Source: Alphaproteobacteria bacterium
GTDB taxonomy: Bacteria; Pseudomonadota; Alphaproteobacteria; UBA2966
Assembly (NCBI GenBank): GCA_018650465.1
Contig: JABIFY010000109.1
Span: 1-60,750 of the forward strand
Length of the DNA: 60,750 bases
Reading direction: 5' to 3'
Under the pieces are notes generated by a model. The model had not been told where the DNA came from. It did no database searches and was given only the letters and a program-made list of their open reading frames with translations. Within the stretch, counting starts at the first letter, position 1. The number at the start of each line of letters is the position of its first letter. The translations under genes and the position numbers were made by a program. Shown in pieces: positions 34,132 to 54,208 of the stretch.

Positions 34132-34185
34132 GGCTTTGAGGCATAAACACTCTTGCCAGCAAAATCCAGCGTTCTATATTGAGAC

Positions 34186-34293
34186 CGTCTCTCTGGGGTG
34201 CCCACCGAACAAATCTTTTTGATCTTTTTCGGGGGCTGAGAAAAAACCCATTGAACCTGAACCGGATTATGCCGGCGGAGGAAGTTGGAGACG
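34186..34293 (+). ncRNA. TPP riboswitch (Thi-box)
   Basis: Conserved elements appear in order: GGGGTGCC (34195-34202), a variable P3a loop, GGCTGAGA (about 34234-34241), ACCCATTGAACCTGA, ACCGGATTATGCCGGCGGAGG. The P1 helix is closed by CGTCTC (34186-34191) with GAGACG (34288-34293). TPP binding is expected to lower expression of the downstream thiBPQ. Confidence 0.95.
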
Positions 34294-34338
34294 AAGAGCC
34301 GTAGTCGTTACTCGCCTTATCACGTCGTACCCCGTTGT

Positions 34339-37719: not shown

Positions 37720-37815
37720 TGGCGAAAGAGGGTGGGAGTTGAACCCACCAGGCACGTTGTACGCCCCTCACCGGATTTGAAGTCCGGGCGCCCCACCGGG
37801 GAACGATCCTCCTTC
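37720..37815 (-). tRNA. selC: tRNA-Sec (anticodon TCA)
   Basis: On the minus strand an 8-bp acceptor stem (GAAGGAGG with CCTCTTTC, one G-T pair) is followed by discriminator G and encoded CCA. The D stem is CCCC/GGGG. The anticodon arm CCGGA-CTTCAAA-TCCGG gives TCA, a long extra arm follows, and the T arm is GTGGG-TTCAACT-CCCAC. The 8-bp acceptor with 5-bp T stem and long variable arm is the tRNA-Sec form. It lies downstream of selB in the selA-selB-selC order. Confidence 0.96.
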
Positions 37816-37835
37816 GAAGTTTTTCATCTTCTCTT

Positions 37836-37953
37836 CGTCATAGCCGGACTTGATCCGGCTATCTCAGTCAGGCTAACCGGCCCCCCTGGAAATGACAGAA
37901 ACAAGCCAGTTTGTAACAGCCTTGGAGATTACCGGGTCAAGCCCGGTAATGAC
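37836..37953. repeat. Alphaproteobacterial long palindromic element, copy A
   Basis: Left arm CGTCATAGCCGGACTTGATC... (37836-37865) and right arm GGAGATTACCGGGTCAAGCC... (37924-37953) are imperfect inverted copies of the CGTCA-x-CCGG-CTTGA-CCGG type. It fills most of the selB-selC gap (37816-38026), where no other feature is seen. A related element with perfect arms is at 49866. Confidence 0.75.
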
Positions 37954-38026
37954 ATATGGCGGCGGGATTTTTTTCTTTTCCACGCAGAATATCATACCTG
38001 CAATATTGTCAATTTTACCGACCCAC

Positions 38027-39946
38027 TCAACTCCCGAAAATGTTTTTGGCCTCGGCGATCAGGGTTCGGGTGTTGCCGTCGCGTTTCGTCAGGCCGACGC
38101 TGTCGAAAAATTCCAGGACTTCGATGGCCAGGTTGCGGCCAATGCCGGTGCGGTCGCGGAAGGCGATGATGTCGATCTTGTTTTCATCCGATGCGTCGGC
38201 CAGCTCGCGTGCCAGGTTGGCCAGTTCCATCAAGGTTTCCGGCAGAAAATAACGGTTCCGGGCGACGCGAAAAACCCAGCCGGTGGCGGCGGCGCGGGTC
38301 AGGAATTTTTCGGTCTGGATCAGTTTAATTTGCAAGGCATCGGTCAATTCCCGCACCCGCAGGGGCCGCAAGCCGCCTTCCCGTAACAGAGGTTCAGTCT
38401 TTTCCCACAAGGCCAGGTCTTCTGGTTGTGGCTGGGCGCTGTGGCCGGGCAAATGGAATAAAGGGCCACGACAGACCAGGGCGTCGGCCTGGCGATGGTG
38501 GTGCAAGGCCGCCTTGATCAGGGCTTCTGCCGGGTGGTCCGGGATCGTTGAGATCAGCTCACGCGCAGAAGCGCCCAATACATGTGGATGGGTATTGTGC
38601 CAGGTCGCCATGGCCGCCAAGGCATCCACACATACGGTGTTCCAGCGGTCGGTCGACAGGCCCCACAGGCGTTTGCCGTCTTGCACCTGGATCAAACCCG
38701 ATTGCGCGAACAGATTTTCACCTGCCAACGCGGACAGATTATGAGCAATGGCAAAGGCCCCAAGGTCCGTGCCGCCGGGCTGTACTTTCAACAGGGCCGC
38801 CAGGGCTGTTGCTGGATCAGCATTTTCCATGGCCGTGACGGCTGCGATGCGCGAAGGACGGGCGCGACCACGGGTGGGTGAAAATGGGTCAATAATCACA
38901 CCGCCAGCAATAGTGCGTTTGGCGGACTGGTCGCGCAAGACAAAACGGTCGCCCTTCAGGGCCGCAATCGGTGCGTCTGTGACTAATTGCACGAGGGCAG
39001 CATCGCCTGGTGCGATAGTACCGCCTTCCAGCACGGCGACCCTGGCGGTGAAATCTCCGGCCCCCAGGTGCAGGTGGACAGGGCTCCAGTGTTTCAAGGC
39101 TTTGGCTTCACTGGCCGCAACTTGCAATCGGGCATCCAGGCGTTTCACCGGCGCATGGGCGGCGGGGGCCAGCAGCCAGTCGCCACGATGCAATGCTTCC
39201 TTGTCGACATCACCTGCAATGTTCACGGCACAACGCTGTCCGGCCTGGCCCACCTCGCTTTGCTGATCCTGCACATGCAAGCCGCGCACCCGAACTGGCT
39301 TGCCTGACGGCGATACCAGCAACTGATCGCCTATCTTGACCTGGCCAGATACAGCCGTGCCAGTGATGACCAGTCCAGCTCCCTTGATGCTGAAGGCCCT
39401 GTCGATGGACAAACGGAAATTGCCGGAAGTATCCCGGGTGCTGGTGTCGGCGGCGGCCTGTTGCAAACAATCCTGCAAGTCCGGCACACCCTCGCCGGTA
39501 ATCGCAGACAGGGGAAAGACAGGTGCCGCGGCCAAAACCGTGTCGGACAACAGCGCTTTGATCTCGCCTTGTACCTCCACCAGGCGTTCGGGCGAAACCC
39601 GGTCGATTTTGTTCAGGGCAATGGCCCCTCGTGTCAGTCCCATAAAGCCCAGGATCGCTAGGTGTTCGCGGGTTTGTGGCATGGGGCCGTCATCGGCGGC
39701 AATAATGATCAGGGCGAAATCAATGCCACCCACGCCCGCCACCATATTACGCACGAACTTTTCATGGCCAGGCACGTCGATAAAACCAACCCGCGCGCCA
39801 TTGTCCAGGGTCTGATAAGCAAATCCCAAATCAATCGTCAGGCCGCGTTTTTTTTCTTCCGGCAGGCGATCGGTGTCGGTGCCGGTCAGCGCTTTGATGA
39901 GCGCCGTCTTGCCGTGGTCGACATGGCCTGCGGTGGCAATAATCAT
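38027..39946 (-). CDS. selB: Selenocysteine-specific elongation factor
   Basis: 639 residues. EF-Tu-like GTPase with GHVDHGK (7-13), DVPGHEKFV and NKID motifs. Domains II and III follow, then C-terminal winged-helix domains (about 400-639) that bind SECIS RNA hairpins in the mRNA. It delivers Sec-tRNA-Sec to recoded UGA codons. selA ends 2 bp upstream, so the genes are co-transcribed, and selC follows downstream. Confidence 0.97.
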
Positions 39947-39948
39947 GG

Positions 39949-41361
39949 TCAGGAATTATTCAGGCTACTGAGCTGTTCAACAAAGATGGTGCTGTCTTCC
40001 AGGCATCTGATATCGAACAGTAGCTGGTCTTCGTGAATGCGCCCGATGACGGGCACAGGTAAGGCGCGAAAGGCGGCGGCCAGGCGTTTCAACTGTCGGC
40101 CTACACTGCCGCCACTTGTGGGGGAAATCGCCAATGCCGCTGAGGGCAGAGTATCCACCGGCAAGGCCCCACTGCCGATCTGGCTAAAGCTGTCGATAAC
40201 AGATACCTCCGCCTCCCCATCCAGTGCCGCCGCCAGGTGTGGGACCAGCGAGTTTGCCATGGCCCGGATTTCTTCCTGTGGTCGGGACAGCAGGCGCAGG
40301 GCCGGGATTTTTTGCGCCAAGTGATCCGGGTTCAGATAGAGCCTGAATATGGCTTCCAGGGCGGCTATGGTCATCTTGTCGACGCGCAAGGCGCGCTTCA
40401 TGGGGTTCTTCTTGATTTTGGCAATCAGGTCGGCCCGTCCGGCAATAATGCCGCATTGCGGACCGCCCAACAATTTGTCACCGCTGAAAGTTACTACATC
40501 GGCCCCGTCAGCAAAGGATTGGTTCGGTGTGGGTTCCGCGGGCAGGCCAAAGCGCGTCAGGTCGGCCAGGGTGCCACTGCCCAGGTCGACCACAAAAGAC
40601 AGGTCATGTTCATGGGCCAGGGTCGCCAGATCATGTTCGGGTACTTCGGCGGTAAAGCCCTGAACTTCGTAATTGCTGGTATGGACTTTCATTAACATGG
40701 CGGATTTGGGACTAATGGCAGCGGCAAAGTCTTTCAGATGCGTACGATTGGTGGTGCCGACCTCATGTAATTTACAGCCCGCCCGCGCCATGATGTCGGG
40801 AATACGAAAGGCCCCGCCGATCTCGATTAATTCACCGCGTGAGACAGCAACTTCCTTGCGGTTGGCCAGGCTGTTCAGGGTCAGCAAGACGGCAGCTGCA
40901 TTGTTGTTGACGACCGTCGCCGCTTCCGCCCCCGTCAGGCGGCAAACCAGGCTTTCCAGATGATCGTCACGGTCACCGCGCTTGCCGCGGCCCAAATCAA
41001 ATTCCAGATTGCTGGCCCCGGCGGCAACCCGGCTCATGGCCTCAATGGCTTCGGCGGGCAGAGGGGCGCGCCCCAGATTGGTATGCAAGACAGTACCGGT
41101 CAGATTAAAGACAGGCCTTAAGGACGGCTGGCTGATCTGGTCCAGCCGGCGGGCCAGTCGGCGAATGATGGCAGCTGTCGAGATGTCCGGTGATTTTTTG
41201 GCGACAGGTATTTCATCGCGCAAGGATTGCAAGGTTTCGCGAATAGAGTCCGTCACCAGGTCCCGGCCATGATCCACGATCAAGTCGGCCACAACATCCT
41301 GTTCCAGCAGGAAATGTACGGACGGCAGGTCGGATAGATCGGTTTTGGCAGTATCATTCAT
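39949..41361 (-). CDS. selA: L-seryl-tRNA(Sec) selenium transferase
   Basis: 470 residues. PLP enzyme converting Ser-tRNA-Sec to Sec-tRNA-Sec with selenophosphate. The N-terminal [17 protein letters not shown] is diagnostic, and the Schiff-base lysine is in [16 protein letters not shown]. The length matches the family. It is divergent from the GrdB-like selenoprotein gene at 41465, with about 100 bp between. selD (selenophosphate synthetase) is not in the window. Confidence 0.97.
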
Positions 41362-41464: not shown

Positions 41465-42706
41465 ATGGTTTCCATGAATAATTTGACGGAACATTATCAA
41501 AAGCTGTTGGGCGATCTTGAATGCCCAAATTTTGACAGTGAACCGTGGGTCAAACCGGTGCCGCTGTCGGAGCGTCGGGTGACCGTGATTTCTTCGGCTG
41601 GCATTCACGACCGGGATGAAGTCCCATTCAAAGGTGGTGATGTGGGCTATCGCACTATCCCCTCCAATGCAAATGCCAAAGATATTGTCATGAGCCACGT
41701 ATCGGTCAATTTTGACCGTACGGCTTTTCAACAGGATTTGAACGCGATATTCCCCATTGATCATCTGAAAGACATGGCGGCGGACGGTACCATCGGCAGT
41801 GTGGCGACGGATCATTATTCCTTCATGGGCGCATCTGACCCTGTGAAAATGGAAGATGAAGTGCGCGAACTGGCGAAACGTTTGCTTGGCGACAAGGTTG
41901 ATACTGCCGTTCTGATTCCTGTTTGACCGTTCTGCACACGCGCCGTGAGCGCGTTGGGACATTTTCTGGAAGAAGAAGGCATCGCCACAACCATCATCAG
42001 TCTGATCCGGGTGCACAGCGAAAAGGTGCGCCCACCACGCAGCCTGTTTGTGCCCTTCGAACTGGGCCGCCCCCTTGGCGCACCCAATGATCCGGCTATG
42101 CAAAAACAGGTGCTGAAGGCCGCCCTTGATTTGCTTGACCGTGACGATGGCCCAAGCTTCATCGAAGATTTCGATTATGATGGTGCTTATCAAGAGCCAA
42201 CGGAAGATTGGCAAAATCCGGCGGCTGATATGGCGGTGGATACGGACGTGTCCGATATGGCTGCCGCCCGTGCCGCGGTTCGTACGGAAGTTGCGGCACT
42301 CAGGCCTTTATACGATAAAGCTGTTGCGCAAAGTGGCCGTGACCCTGTTGGCACGTCGGGGCTGGCTATGGAGCAGATCGCAGATTATGTGACAGCCTTT
42401 TTGGGTGAGCCACCGGAAAGCCCCCCTGACGGTGCAAGGGCAGATATCTCGGTCGCCATGATTTTGCGCTACGCCGCCGATGATCTGACCGCCTTTTATC
42501 TTCACGCCACCTCAGCCGGAAGCCTCACACGTGACCTCACGCCGTCCAGTGTTCAACAGACCGACTGGTTCTGGCAACAAACCGCTGCCGCCAAAGTCCT
42601 GATCGCGCTGCGTGCGAAATGGATGGACAGCGACAACACCGGCCTGAAAACCGTCTGCGGCAGATTCATGATTCCCCACATGCAGATACATGGTCTGGGG
42701 TTGTAA
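41465..42706 (+). CDS. Selenoprotein, GrdB/PrdB-like (glycine/betaine/D-proline reductase B family), UGA-recoded
   Basis: A single 413-residue protein read through TGA 41924-41926, which naive calling splits into two ORFs (41465-41926 and 41945-42706). The residue is U154 in VLIPV-U-P-F-C-T-R-A, the UxxCT motif of reductase B selenoproteins (resolving Cys157). N-terminal VISSAGIHDRDEVPFKGGDVGYRTIP and DHYSFMGASDP are characteristic of the family. A C-terminal region (about 230-413) extends beyond the usual core. A SECIS-like hairpin follows the TGA at the correct distance. The start uses AAAGGA about 9 nt upstream. It is divergent from selA. The usual clostridial GrdA/GrdC/GrdD partners are not nearby, so the reaction is unknown. 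Confidence 0.9.
41938..41954 (+). promoter_or_regulatory. bSECIS hairpin of the GrdB-like selenoprotein
   Basis: ACGCGC (41938-41943), loop CGTGA (41944-41948), GCGCGT (41949-41954). The 6-bp stem begins 11 nt and the loop 17 nt after the TGA. The second loop base is G. This meets the published bacterial SECIS model (loop 16-37 nt from UGA, G in the first two loop bases), which I state from memory. Confidence 0.75.
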
Positions 42707-50998: not shown

Positions 50999-51070
50999 TT
51001 TCCGACAGGGGTTTGCCCCCTCGTGCTTCAAGGTCTTTAATGCAGGGATTGGAAAGTGCGAGGAAAAGTC

Positions 51071-52561
51071 ATGAGAGATACAGACGTCATTGTCATCGGA
51101 GCCGGGAATGCTGCCTTGTGTGCCGCCCTGTCCGCTGCGGATCAGGGTGCCAGGGTTGTGGTTCTGGAACGGGCCCACGAAGACGAACGCGGTGGCAATT
51201 CACGCTTTACCGCCGGGGCCATGCGCGTTGTTTACAATGGCCTGGACGATCTGCTGGAACTGATGCCCGACCTGACAGAAGAAGACCGTCTGAATGAATT
51301 TGGCCAATACACCTCCGATCAGTTCTTTGACGACATGGGTCGGATCACGGATTATCGCGCCGATCCTGACCTGGTTGAAACCCTGGTGCATGGCAGTTAT
51401 CCAGCCCTGAAATGGATGCACGGCAAGGGCGTGCGTTTCATGCCTATGTATGCCCGCCAGGCCTTCAAGACTGATGAGGGCCGCTTCCGGTTTTGGGGTG
51501 GGCTGACGGTTGAAGCCTGGGGGGGCGGCGAAGGTTTGGTTGAATCACTGCACAAGGCCGTCGCCAAACATAATATCGACGTGCGATATGGCGCCCGTGC
51601 GCTGTCCTTGTTGCAAGATGACAACGGCATTCATGGTGTACGTTTGAAGCAACTGGGCATTACGCAAGACTTGCGCGCCGGAGCAGTCGTCATTGCCGCT
51701 GGCGGATTTCAGGCCAACACCGAAATGCGCACGCGCTATCTGGGTCCGGGCTGGGATTTGGCCAAGGTGCGCGGTAGCCGCTTTAACACGGGCGATGGAA
51801 TTAATATGGCGCTGGAGGCCGGGGCCATGCCCTTTGGCAACTGGTCCGGCTGTCATTCGGTGGGCTGGGACCGCAACGCACCAGCCTTTGGTGACCTCGC
51901 TGTTGGCGATGGTTTTCAAAAGCATTCCTATCCCTTTGGCATTATCGTCAATGCCAATGGTGAACGCTTCGTTGATGAAGGGGCTGATTTCCGCAACTAC
52001 ACCTACGCCAAATATGGCGGTGAAGTTCTGAAACAGCCCGGCCAGTTTGCCTGGCAAATATTCGACGCCAAATCAGAAAGCCTGCTGCGCGACGAATATC
52101 GCATTCGGGAAATCACCAAGGTGCAATCGGATACAATAGAAGGCCTCGCCGATCAGCTGGAAGGTGTGGACAAGGCCGGTTTCCTGAAAACGGTTGCCGA
52201 CTATAACGCCGCTGTCGATCAAGCAACGCCTTTTGATCCGACGGTCAAGGATGGACGCGCAACGGAAGGCCTGGCCTTACCCAAATCGAACTGGGCCAAT
52301 CCCCTGGATACACCGCCCTTCAAGGCCTTCGCCATTACCTGCGGTATTACCTTTACCTTCGGTGGCTTGAAGGTCAGCCCGGCTGGCCAGGTCATCGATA
52401 CGGAAGGCGACGTCATTCGTGGTTTGTTCGCGGCTGGCGAACTGGTCGGTGGCTTGTTCTATGGCAACTATCCAGGTGGGTCAGGCCTGACATCGGGTGC
52501 TGTTTTTGGACGCGCCGCGGGGACATCTGCCGGGCACCTGGCGACGGGTGCCGGACTATGA
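51071..52561 (+). CDS. TcuA-like FAD-dependent dehydrogenase (fumarate-reductase flavoprotein family)
   Basis: 496 residues from ATG 51071 (AGGAAA 5 nt upstream). FAD-binding Rossmann motif VIVIGAGNAALCAALSAADQG with the acidic end VLERAHE. GGNSRFTAGAMR and WGGGEGLVESL precede the cap domain. The C-terminal FAD loop is FAAGELVGGLFYGNYPGGSGLTSGAVFGR. The pattern is that of tricarballylate dehydrogenase TcuA and relatives, which desaturate carboxylic acids. It overlaps the downstream dehydrogenase gene by ATGA (4 bp). Confidence 0.9.
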   Translation: MRDTDVIVIGAGNAALCAALSAADQGARVVVLERAHEDERGGNSRFTAGAMRVVYNGLDDLLELMPDLTEEDRLNEFGQYTSDQFFDDMGRITDYRADPDLVETLVHGSYPALKWMHGKGVRFMPMYARQAFKTDEGRFRFWGGLTVEAWGGGEGLVESLHKAVAKHNIDVRYGARALSLLQDDNGIHGVRLKQLGITQDLRAGAVVIAAGGFQANTEMRTRYLGPGWDLAKVRGSRFNTGDGINMALEAGAMPFGNWSGCHSVGWDRNAPAFGDLAVGDGFQKHSYPFGIIVNANGERFVDEGADFRNYTYAKYGGEVLKQPGQFAWQIFDAKSESLLRDEYRIREITKVQSDTIEGLADQLEGVDKAGFLKTVADYNAAVDQATPFDPTVKDGRATEGLALPKSNWANPLDTPPFKAFAITCGITFTFGGLKVSPAGQVIDTEGDVIRGLFAAGELVGGLFYGNYPGGSGLTSGAVFGRAAGTSAGHLATGAGL

Positions 52562-53454
52562 AGATTTCAAAGATTGGCTTTATTGGCTTGGGCGTGATGG
52601 GTGAACCCATGTGTCGCAACCTGGCCCGTCAATGCGGCCTGCCGGTTATGGCTTTTGATCTCAACCCGGAACCTCTTGCCCGCGCGGCCCAGGATGGTGT
52701 GGTGACGGCAACGTCCATGGCTGACCTGGTTGGCAATGCTGATGTGATCTTCCTTTCCCTGCCAGGCGGCGAACAGTTGGAAACTGTGTGCCGGGGGGCG
52801 GACGGCCTGCTGGCGCATGTGCGGATGGGTCAAACCATTGTCGATACCAGTACGTCGCCGGTCTCCCTGACACGTGAGCTGGCCGCCGAATTTCAGACCA
52901 AAGGTGTGGGCTATGCCGACGCGCCCATCGCCCGCACCCGACAAGCGGCGCAGGATGGCACCCTCAGTATTATGGTCGGTGCATCAGTTGAGCTGTTTGA
53001 CCGCCTGAAACCTCTGCTCGATTTCATGGGATCAGACGTGGCCCATTGTGGCGATGTGGGTTGTGGGCAAATCGTCAAGACGCTCAACAACATGGTGTTG
53101 ATGGAAACGGTTCAGGCCTTGTCCGAAGCCCTGACCATTGGCCAGCGTGCCGGCATGGATGGCGAGGTTTTGTTCAAGACCTTGATGAACGGCTCTGCCG
53201 ACAGCTTTGCTCTGCGTAACCATGGCATGAAGGCCATGCTGCCGGGTGTCTTTCCTGAAAAGGCCTTCTCTGTTGATTATGCCCTGAAGGATATGTCCTA
53301 TGCCCTGGACCTGGCGCACGAGACAGGTGTGGCCGCAACCGGTGCTCTGAATGCAGACGCCAGCCTGCGCAAGGCGCAGGAACTGGGTTATGGCGACAAT
53401 TATTGGCCGGTAATTGTAAAAGGAATTGCCAAAGCCATTGATGATAATCATTGA
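52558..53454 (+). CDS. Beta-hydroxyacid dehydrogenase (3-hydroxyisobutyrate dehydrogenase family)
   Basis: 298 residues, NAD(P)-dependent. N-terminal IGFIGLGVMGEPMCRNLAR is the dinucleotide motif. FLSLPGGEQLETVC and DTSTSPVSLTRELA follow. The catalytic lysine is in CGQIVKTLNNMV. It resembles 3-hydroxyisobutyrate dehydrogenase and tartronate semialdehyde reductase. It is translationally coupled to the TcuA-like gene and probably acts on its pathway product. Confidence 0.9.
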   Translation: MKISKIGFIGLGVMGEPMCRNLARQCGLPVMAFDLNPEPLARAAQDGVVTATSMADLVGNADVIFLSLPGGEQLETVCRGADGLLAHVRMGQTIVDTSTSPVSLTRELAAEFQTKGVGYADAPIARTRQAAQDGTLSIMVGASVELFDRLKPLLDFMGSDVAHCGDVGCGQIVKTLNNMVLMETVQALSEALTIGQRAGMDGEVLFKTLMNGSADSFALRNHGMKAMLPGVFPEKAFSVDYALKDMSYALDLAHETGVAATGALNADASLRKAQELGYGDNYWPVIVKGIAKAIDDNH

Positions 53455-53521
53455 GCCTCAAGGGCTTTACCTTTTTGCCCAGACCCCGATAGGATTGACG
53501 GGTAACAAAAGGGAGTAGCTG

Positions 53522-54208
53522 GTGACGGATTATAATTACAAGGATTTCGAGATGGCGCGGGAGATGCCGCCCTTTGACGAATTTCGCAACAAATTGTTCG
53601 TGGGCGAAAAGGCCCCGGACTTTCCACTGGAGGATCTGACCACGGGCGAGACCGTGCAACTCAGTTCGCTCTGGAAAAAAGGCCCGGCCATTATCGAGTT
53701 TGGATCCTTCACCTGACCGTATTGCGCCATGGCGACCGCAGCGATGGATGACCTCGCTGCTCGCCTGGCAGATCGAACCGTGAGTTCGGCATTTATATAC
53801 ACTCGTGAAGCCCATCCCGGCGAAAACTATCGTCACCACACGACGATGGATGACAAACGCGCCAACGCCAAAGCCTATCAGGAACACTCAAGCGTTCAAC
53901 GTCCGATCTTGCTGGATACCGTGGAAGGCGATTGCCACCAGGCCTACGGCATTTTACCCAACATGACCTGGATCATCGGACGCGGCGGCATCATTATCTA
54001 CAAGGGTGCCTGGACTGGCGTCGAAGATGTGGAACAGGCCTTCGACGCCTACATGGACGGCAAAGACCGCCAGATCAAGGATCAATTGGTGCCGTTCTAC
54101 TCCGAACGCTTTTCCTGGCGCACCCGCAACGAAGAAGGCTTCAACGAAGGCCTCGTTCGCGCTGGACCACAAGCCGTGTCGGATTTTTTTCCGGACAAAA
54201 AGGATTGA
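53522..54208 (+). CDS. Selenoprotein, iodothyronine-deiodinase-like thioredoxin-fold protein, UGA-recoded
   Basis: A single 228-residue protein read through TGA 53714-53716, which otherwise looks like two ORFs (53522-53716 and 53729-54208). It starts at GTG 53522 with GGGAG upstream. APDFPLEDLTTGETVQLSSL is the peroxiredoxin/deiodinase-like entry. The recoded residue is U65 in FGSFT-U-P-Y-C, giving a UxxC redox pair with Cys68. EAHP (96-99) matches the deiodinase-family EAHP-S-D-G motif, and RPILLDTVEGDCHQAYGILPNMTW and GRGGIIIYKGAWTG complete the thioredoxin fold. Vertebrate deiodinases lack this resolving Cys, so a redox role is more likely than deiodination. A SECIS hairpin and a downstream terminator are visible. 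Confidence 0.92.
53738..53760 (+). promoter_or_regulatory. bSECIS hairpin of the deiodinase-like selenoprotein
   Basis: GCAGCGA (53738-53744), loop TGGATGACC (53745-53753), TCGCTGC (53754-53760): a perfect 7-bp stem. The loop starts 28 nt after the TGA, inside the 16-37 nt window of the bacterial SECIS model. The second loop base is G as required. SelB in the window should bind it. Confidence 0.8.

Follow-up and report, generated by a model that had tools for sequence, protein, structure and literature searches.

The question raised by this locus is whether the in-frame TGA at 53714..53716 (+) of the window, that is, of the whole 60,750-nt stretch of alphaproteobacterial DNA analysed here, ends a gene or is read within one as selenocysteine (Sec). 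A sequence-only reading had joined the ORFs on its two sides into a single deiodinase-like selenoprotein, and the frame is indeed open from a GTG start at 53522 to a TGA stop at 54206-54208 (53522..54208, +). Read-through of the TGA at 53714 yields one frame of 228 residues, in which this codon becomes Sec65 in the context FGSFT-U-PYC and a TGC codon (53723..53725, +) supplies Cys68, its +3 partner in U-P-Y-C. Judged from the letters, a Shine-Dalgarno-like AGGGAG (53510..53515, +) precedes the GTG, and AAAGGGAG likewise lies 5′ of the start codon in the relative L002. No signal sequence was seen by eye in the protein, which is probably cytosolic. If the 53714 TGA were instead a genuine stop, the two ORFs would be separate genes or the remains of a decayed one; in keeping with this, the ORF listing (at least 100 aa) reports for 53522-54208 the downstream part alone (53729-54208, from an ATG at 53729). 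This alternative was weighed against the relatives of the gene and against the RNA that follows the TGA.

What lies on either side of the TGA is a single family, as had been proposed: the match of the protein to T4_deiodinase (PF00837; 2.2e-10, 40.7 bits, cut-off 27) spans residues 23-163, and AhpC-TSA is matched as well (3.5e-11, 43.6 bits, cut-off 26). PF00837 is also matched at E ≤ 0.001 by 49/49 rows of our family alignment; the NCBIfam model NF038285 (deiodinase_rel) gives 66.5 bits, below its cut-off of 250. The top sequence match with a solved structure is mouse Dio3 (2.9e-6). A second genome of the genus carries a protein 95% identical over residues 1-228, with the TGA at the identical position. 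To look further afield, 84,980 species were scanned with the pattern [VIL]Y[VT]REAHPG, 369 relatives were confirmed and the best 80 were kept. TGA or Cys occupies the 53714 column, at which the sequence-only reading had advised looking for Sec/Cys homologues, in all of these best 80 of 369: 75, counting L045, combine TGA with Cys at +3, in L120 the TGA is accompanied by Phe at +3, and in L113, L115, L121 and L124 the column holds Cys. No CxxC form occurs among the best 80 of 369, a statement restricted to these since the remaining 289 relatives were unseen. In the alignment, from which L045 (on the same contig as L002) and the duplicate loci L039-L041, L043 and L044 were dropped, Cys68 is Cys in 76/77 Sec rows, the window included. 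The 75 relatives belong to Alpha-, Beta-, Gamma- and Deltaproteobacteria, Myxococcales, Acidobacteria, Chloroflexi, Thermomicrobia, Actinobacteria and Bacillota; their genomes are nearly all metagenome-assembled, but one of the actinobacterial carriers of the UxxC gene is a named strain, Haloechinothrix aidingensis YIM 98757 (L088).

Four of 41 related genomes (its own included) have a match, one of them being the same-genus, 95% identical gene with its TGA, and across the class some match at E ≤ 0.001 is found in 44/385 genomes. The closer Cys relatives (L003, L005-L009) have Cys at the TGA column. Outside the genus, all nine inspected loci with a strong TGA-bearing match read TUPPF (L010-L017 and L022, of which L010, L012, L014 and L022 were read for the motif only and the other five were aligned), a class count in which G041, with a weak TGA-bearing match at 2.6e-5, is not included. 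A phylum sample searched with the 49-row family alignment at E ≤ 1e-10 gave matches in 8/398 genomes, of which none but the window gene bears a TGA, and no relative was found on viral contigs (scanned with six peptide patterns, one of which had a Cys codon in place of Sec) or plasmids.

The region following the TGA folds as a bacterial SECIS element would. The hairpin that the sequence-only reading had described proved exact in every detail: arms at 53738-53744 and 53754-53760 form a 7-bp stem (GCAGCGA/TCGCTGC; 53738..53760, +) around the 9-nt loop TGGATGACC, and the loop (53745-53753, UGGAUGACC) has G as its second base and begins 28 nt past the TGA. Published limits for bacterial SECIS elements are a loop of 3-9 nt, a stem of 4-16 bp and a spacing of 16-37 nt, with a G within the first two loop bases and an energy ≤ -7.5 (PMC13188914). 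The window element lies inside all of them: its 7-bp stem, 9-nt loop, G at the second loop base and 28-nt spacing comply, and a 51-nt fold reaches -17.8 kcal/mol. An extended fold (53714..53784, +) has a minimum energy of -31.2 kcal/mol, with z -4.09 against dinucleotide shuffles, and forms two extra GG/CC pairs within the loop, leaving AUGA unpaired; shorter folds of the segment are unremarkable against shuffles (z -0.07 for 41 nt, -1.09 for 51 nt).

Simple hairpins are frequent in coding sequence. In a cruder control with looser limits, one of at least 6 bp is present in 35% of 17,372 windows taken elsewhere in the same genes, as against 68/77 at the TGA. We also compared the Sec genes of the window, L002 and 75 further loci, 77 in all, with 200 synonymous-codon resamplings. 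Hairpins of at least 6 bp that obey the loop, spacing and G rules occur in 64 of the 77 genes, the resampled mean being 17.05 and the maximum 27. The energy of the whole segment is less distinctive (mean z -0.56, lower than resampled in 56/77; window -2.42). Hairpin loops in the window's group mostly lie 24-31 nt after the TGA, with exceptions; most sequences from L062 on have loops such as GGC, GUC, GGUC or CGUGC, 16-19 nt after it, and in L046 no qualifying hairpin was found, even at 5 bp. The stem also covaries among 18 alpha/beta-type sequences: the first pair at a third codon position is GC in 11, CG in 3, GU in 1 and unpaired in 3, and the second is GC in 7, AU in 5, GU in 2, CG in 1 and unpaired in 3. 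The covarying stem cells of these 18 sequences are paired in 89% of cases, and in at most 62% when the stem is slid. Between the sister genes, 2/20 codons past the TGA carry synonymous changes against 52/187 elsewhere, a difference that is not decisive (p 0.065).

A true stop or a sequencing error can be rejected, because the second genome and relatives in other phyla have TGA at this very codon. For a genuine stop there is, in our judgement, practically no chance: the reading has the ORF listing on its side, but would have to accommodate the identical TGA in a second genome whose protein is so similar throughout, its presence in 75 of the best 80 of 369 relatives and the excess of SECIS hairpins over synonymous resampling.

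The machinery for Sec insertion had likewise been placed in the window, and all three of its named components are there, at 37720-41361 (-): tRNA-Sec with anticodon TCA (37720..37815, -), the Sec-specific elongation factor gene selB (38027..39946, -; TIGR00475, 468 bits, cut-off 242.25) and the Sec synthase gene selA (39949..41361, -; TIGR00474, 600.1 bits, cut-off 267.9), the two proteins scoring above curated cut-offs. selD sits on another contig of the same genome (427.6 bits against 125). Among genomes with Sec-type members of the family, selB is above its cut-off in 38/46 and lacking at that level in 8/46; it is found in 2/4 Cys-type genomes and in 2/14 controls. The genome also holds, at G000:C32:31400-33400 (L139), a selenoprotein candidate with an AhpC-TSA domain and an in-frame TGA read as TWASW-U-GC. 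Two formate dehydrogenase alpha homologues above cut-off, on contigs C27 and C159 (L127, L128), have no stop within the match and are therefore unlike Sec enzymes.

A second selenoprotein gene lies in the window at 41465-42706 (+), adjoining selA and divergent from it. An in-frame TGA (41924-41926, PVUPFC) links its two ORFs, which share a reading frame, and the gene matches PF07355 (GRDB; 33.1 bits against 22); the segment past its TGA forms a 6-bp hairpin with loop CGUGA, but folds no better than shuffles (z -0.09). The distance to the UxxC gene is 10.8 kb, and the sister genome likewise has both families on a single contig, separated by about 10.6 kb. The next gene downstream of the UxxC gene, at -11 to 72 bp, is a PF07355 (GrdB/PrdB) homologue in six loci from actinobacteria (L073, L085, L087, L089, L090 and L096), identified by Pfam for L085 and by similarity for the other five. 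In all six the PF07355-like ORF stops at a TGA past which the frame continues, and we read this site as ATUPVC; these loci are predicted two-selenoprotein gene pairs. A PF07355-like gene (L046:6812-7612) also adjoins a UxxC gene convergently. PF07355 is present in 24/46 Sec-type and 0/4 Cys-type genomes. A specific genome-wide link between PF07355 and the UxxC gene was considered and not upheld, because PF07355 is found as well in 5/9 genomes of the class with a TUPPF gene and in 43/385 of the class overall, the window's genus included.

Apart from the PF07355 pair in a few loci, nothing in the gene neighbourhood stood out. Clustering of neighbouring ORFs around 80 loci and the window, with flanks of up to 6 kb (shorter at contig ends), gave no cluster present in more than 8 loci, and among 62 same-strand neighbours chosen from a longer list no Pfam family had more than 4 members; a gene from which the substrate could be told is thus not widely repeated around UxxC loci. 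At 51056-53454 (+), a gene for a TcuA-like FAD-dependent dehydrogenase (580.7 bits, cut-off 369) overlaps one of 3-hydroxyisobutyrate-dehydrogenase type, which ends 67 bp upstream of the selenoprotein gene, and in L045 the selenoprotein gene is likewise preceded by a homologue of this second dehydrogenase gene, at 89% identity. Farther off in the window, a TPP riboswitch (34184-34300, +; 58.5 bits, cut-off 54.3) is followed on its 3′ side by genes for a solute-binding protein, a permease and a ThiQ-like ATPase (scoring below the cut-off for ThiQ); this is probably an operon for thiamine transport.

We then turned to the structure of the protein. An AlphaFold model built with 49 family members (pLDDT 94.4, pTM 0.91) has a thioredoxin-type fold in which Sec65 immediately precedes helix 66-81. 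Foldseek places Dio3 and Dio2 on top (4tr3, E 5.1e-11), and in VIA-align the best superpositions are with Dio2 (9h48; Z 19.0, 158 aligned, 2.3 Å) and Dio3 (4tr3; Z 18.1, 160 aligned, 3.1 Å), the next entry being at Z 16.6. In what the sequence-only reading had called the cis-Pro region, the column of P146 is Pro in 70/76 UxxC rows. For Dio2, a proton relay of Glu160, His162, His182, Ser127, Thr129 and Tyr157 has been proposed (PMC11592359). Mapping positions through the Dio3 alignment and motif spacing, the respective counterparts are Glu96, His98, His106, Ser62, Thr64 and Tyr93. Among UxxC rows Ser62 is kept in 74/76, Thr64 in 73/76 and His106 in 65/76; Tyr93, Glu96 and His98 are kept in 76/76, a figure partly built in, since the scan pattern [VIL]Y[VT]REAHPG itself covers Tyr93 and Arg95-Gly100. 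In Dio1, the Cys at -2 bonds to the catalytic residue and is required for reduction by glutathione (PMC9141512). The residue at -2 is Phe63 in the window protein and F, L, I, V or Y in 76/76 rows, with Cys in 0/76, and besides +3 no Cys column exceeds 15/76 UxxC rows. From EAHP to the His106 column there are 6 residues in 76/76 UxxC rows, as against 18 in five aligned TUPPF rows; the substrate loop is thus absent. Given the conserved relay, the missing Cys at -2 and the short stretch after EAHP, the chemistry looks deiodinase-like, but with a different recycling Cys and substrate loop. The reading as one deiodinase-like UxxC selenoprotein thus has the support of its relatives, of the hairpin statistics, of the Sec genes and of the modelled fold, and that 53522-54208 encodes a real selenoprotein we regard as almost certain. 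Ordinary gene calling cuts such a gene in two or shortens it.

In a tree with a peroxiredoxin-like outgroup, for which 39/76 UxxC rows were taken (L001, L002 and every second other), the UxxC sequences branch off as a basal grade, and mouse Dio3 is nested within a derived clade of TUPPF and Cys sequences. The basal grade is still preferred once motif columns and four long rows are removed (basal forks at 66-70% bootstrap); a single UxxC clade is not rejected in this reduced tree test (p-AU 0.198). One might suppose that the whole deiodinase family goes back to UxxC proteins, as bacterial thiol reductases known with Sec only and encoded in some lineages as a gene pair with a PF07355 (GrdB/PrdB-like) UPVC partner, from which Cys-containing bacterial, TUPPF and vertebrate forms would have derived by loss of the +3 Cys, the last two also gaining the substrate loop. 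We offer this scenario as a speculation that is rather more doubtful than probable.

What the enzyme does is most plausibly explained, all evidence considered, by a Sec65/Cys68 selenoenzyme of the prokaryotic deiodinase-like family acting on a small oxidised substrate, and a thiol-redox cycle between the two residues is likely in its own right. That the protein is a thiol-redox enzyme, as the sequence-only reading had suggested, is something we infer. SelB and tRNA-Sec would decode the UGA at 53714 as selenocysteine with the aid of the downstream hairpin, a step to which comparison lends strong support. In the model, Sec65 lies beside the Ser/Thr/Tyr/Glu/His/His set as in the proposed deiodinase relay, and this set may serve as a relay here too. 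Its selenolate could attack a small electrophilic or oxidised substrate; Cys68 could capture the oxidised Sec as a Sec65-Cys68 selenenylsulfide, which a cellular thiol (thioredoxin, glutaredoxin or glutathione) might reset. With its recycling Cys at +3 rather than -2 and no thyronine-binding loop, the enzyme probably acts on a peroxide, a disulfide or another small oxidant rather than on an iodothyronine. Deiodination of thyronines is unlikely, since the protein lacks both the Cys at -2 and the deiodinase loop insertion.

Two other functions share part of this evidence. The protein could be a selenium-dependent, peroxiredoxin-like peroxidase whose main job is the removal of peroxide, with Sec65 peroxidatic and Cys68 resolving. 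That AhpC-TSA (PF00578) is matched by 49/49 rows of the family alignment, and that many peroxiredoxins appear among the structural matches at Z about 14.5-15, would fit such a role. Deiodinases superpose better, however, as the Z of 19.0 and 18.1 given above attest, and a Cys at +3 is in the thioredoxin/glutaredoxin-type position. Peroxiredoxins carry the active-site motif PxxxT/SxxC (in its T/S form); Ser62 at -3 fits its T/SxxC part, as does Ser in 74/76 rows, but Ile58 stands where the motif has Pro (-7). With half of the motif present, peroxide specificity is not indicated by the sequence. A PxxxTxxU form is given in the review literature (one of PMC9312934 and PMC13188914). We consider this role possible but on the unlikely side. 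A reductive dehalogenase, which would apply deiodinase chemistry to small aryl halides or iodotyrosine-like compounds, would explain the retention of the deiodinase relay residues and the place of Dio2 and Dio3 as top fold matches. It is hard to reconcile with the short stretch from EAHP to the relay His (6 residues in 76/76 UxxC rows), and Dio3 is nine residues longer after EAHP in the sequence alignment; nor do dehalogenation genes recur alongside the UxxC gene. This we hold to be improbable, and the Sec65/Cys68 thiol-redox enzyme of the deiodinase-like family remains our preferred reading.

The interest of the UxxC subfamily is that it spans several phyla and keeps the relay residues of deiodinases with the recycling Cys elsewhere. 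As a natural experiment, it bears on the way deiodinase-type chemistry is reset and on the origin of the vertebrate deiodinases. In the literature searched, by titles and abstract openings, we recognised no functional test of a bacterial deiodinase-like member; a selenoprotein family that is listed but, as far as that literature goes, unstudied thus becomes testable.

Proteins of this kind have been met before. The Sargasso Sea study of 2005 reported four Sec-containing bacterial deiodinase-like sequences together with Cys homologues (apparently six) and suggested a redox function (PMC1088965). The GOS study of 2008 counted 22 Sec and 21 Cys members, the family motif being absent from its table (PMC2398784), and a marine study of 2021 described a fusion of a deiodinase-like protein with an EF-hand domain (PMC9402790). 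Reviews of 2022 and 2026 equate the prokaryotic deiodinase-like family with PF00837 and UxxC, with MBO99264.1 and MFL2763324.1 as published representatives (PMC9312934, PMC13188914). The sequence-only reading was thus right that UxxC differs from vertebrate deiodinases, but the arrangement is not an unknown one, as two reviews give the motif.

Compared with known systems, the window protein agrees with the prokaryotic family in its PF00837 match, Sec at the catalytic position, UxxC motif and bacterial SECIS, a likeness judged on these features. To Dio1-Dio3 (4tr3, 9h48) it is alike in the fold of the catalytic core, the GSxTU context and the proton-relay residues. It departs from them in that Dio1 and Dio3 have their recycling Cys at -2, where the window protein has none, its own being at +3; in that vertebrate deiodinases carry a loop insertion after EAHP which it lacks; and in that Phe258 of Dio3 corresponds to P146 in the sequence alignment. 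Bacterial TUPPF Sec proteins share with it EAHP and Sec at the same column, and are 29-31% identical to it over the core (five loci), but they have Phe at +3 and, in the five aligned, the 18-residue stretch after EAHP. With thioredoxin-like oxidoreductases (ResA, DsbE) and peroxiredoxins it has the fold in common, at structural scores below those of the deiodinases; to our knowledge, EAHP and the relay set are not features of ResA/DsbE-type oxidoreductases or peroxiredoxins. Since the reviews list a PF00837 UxxC family, the deiodinase-like UxxC protein is a kind already in the literature, of which the window gene is an additional member.
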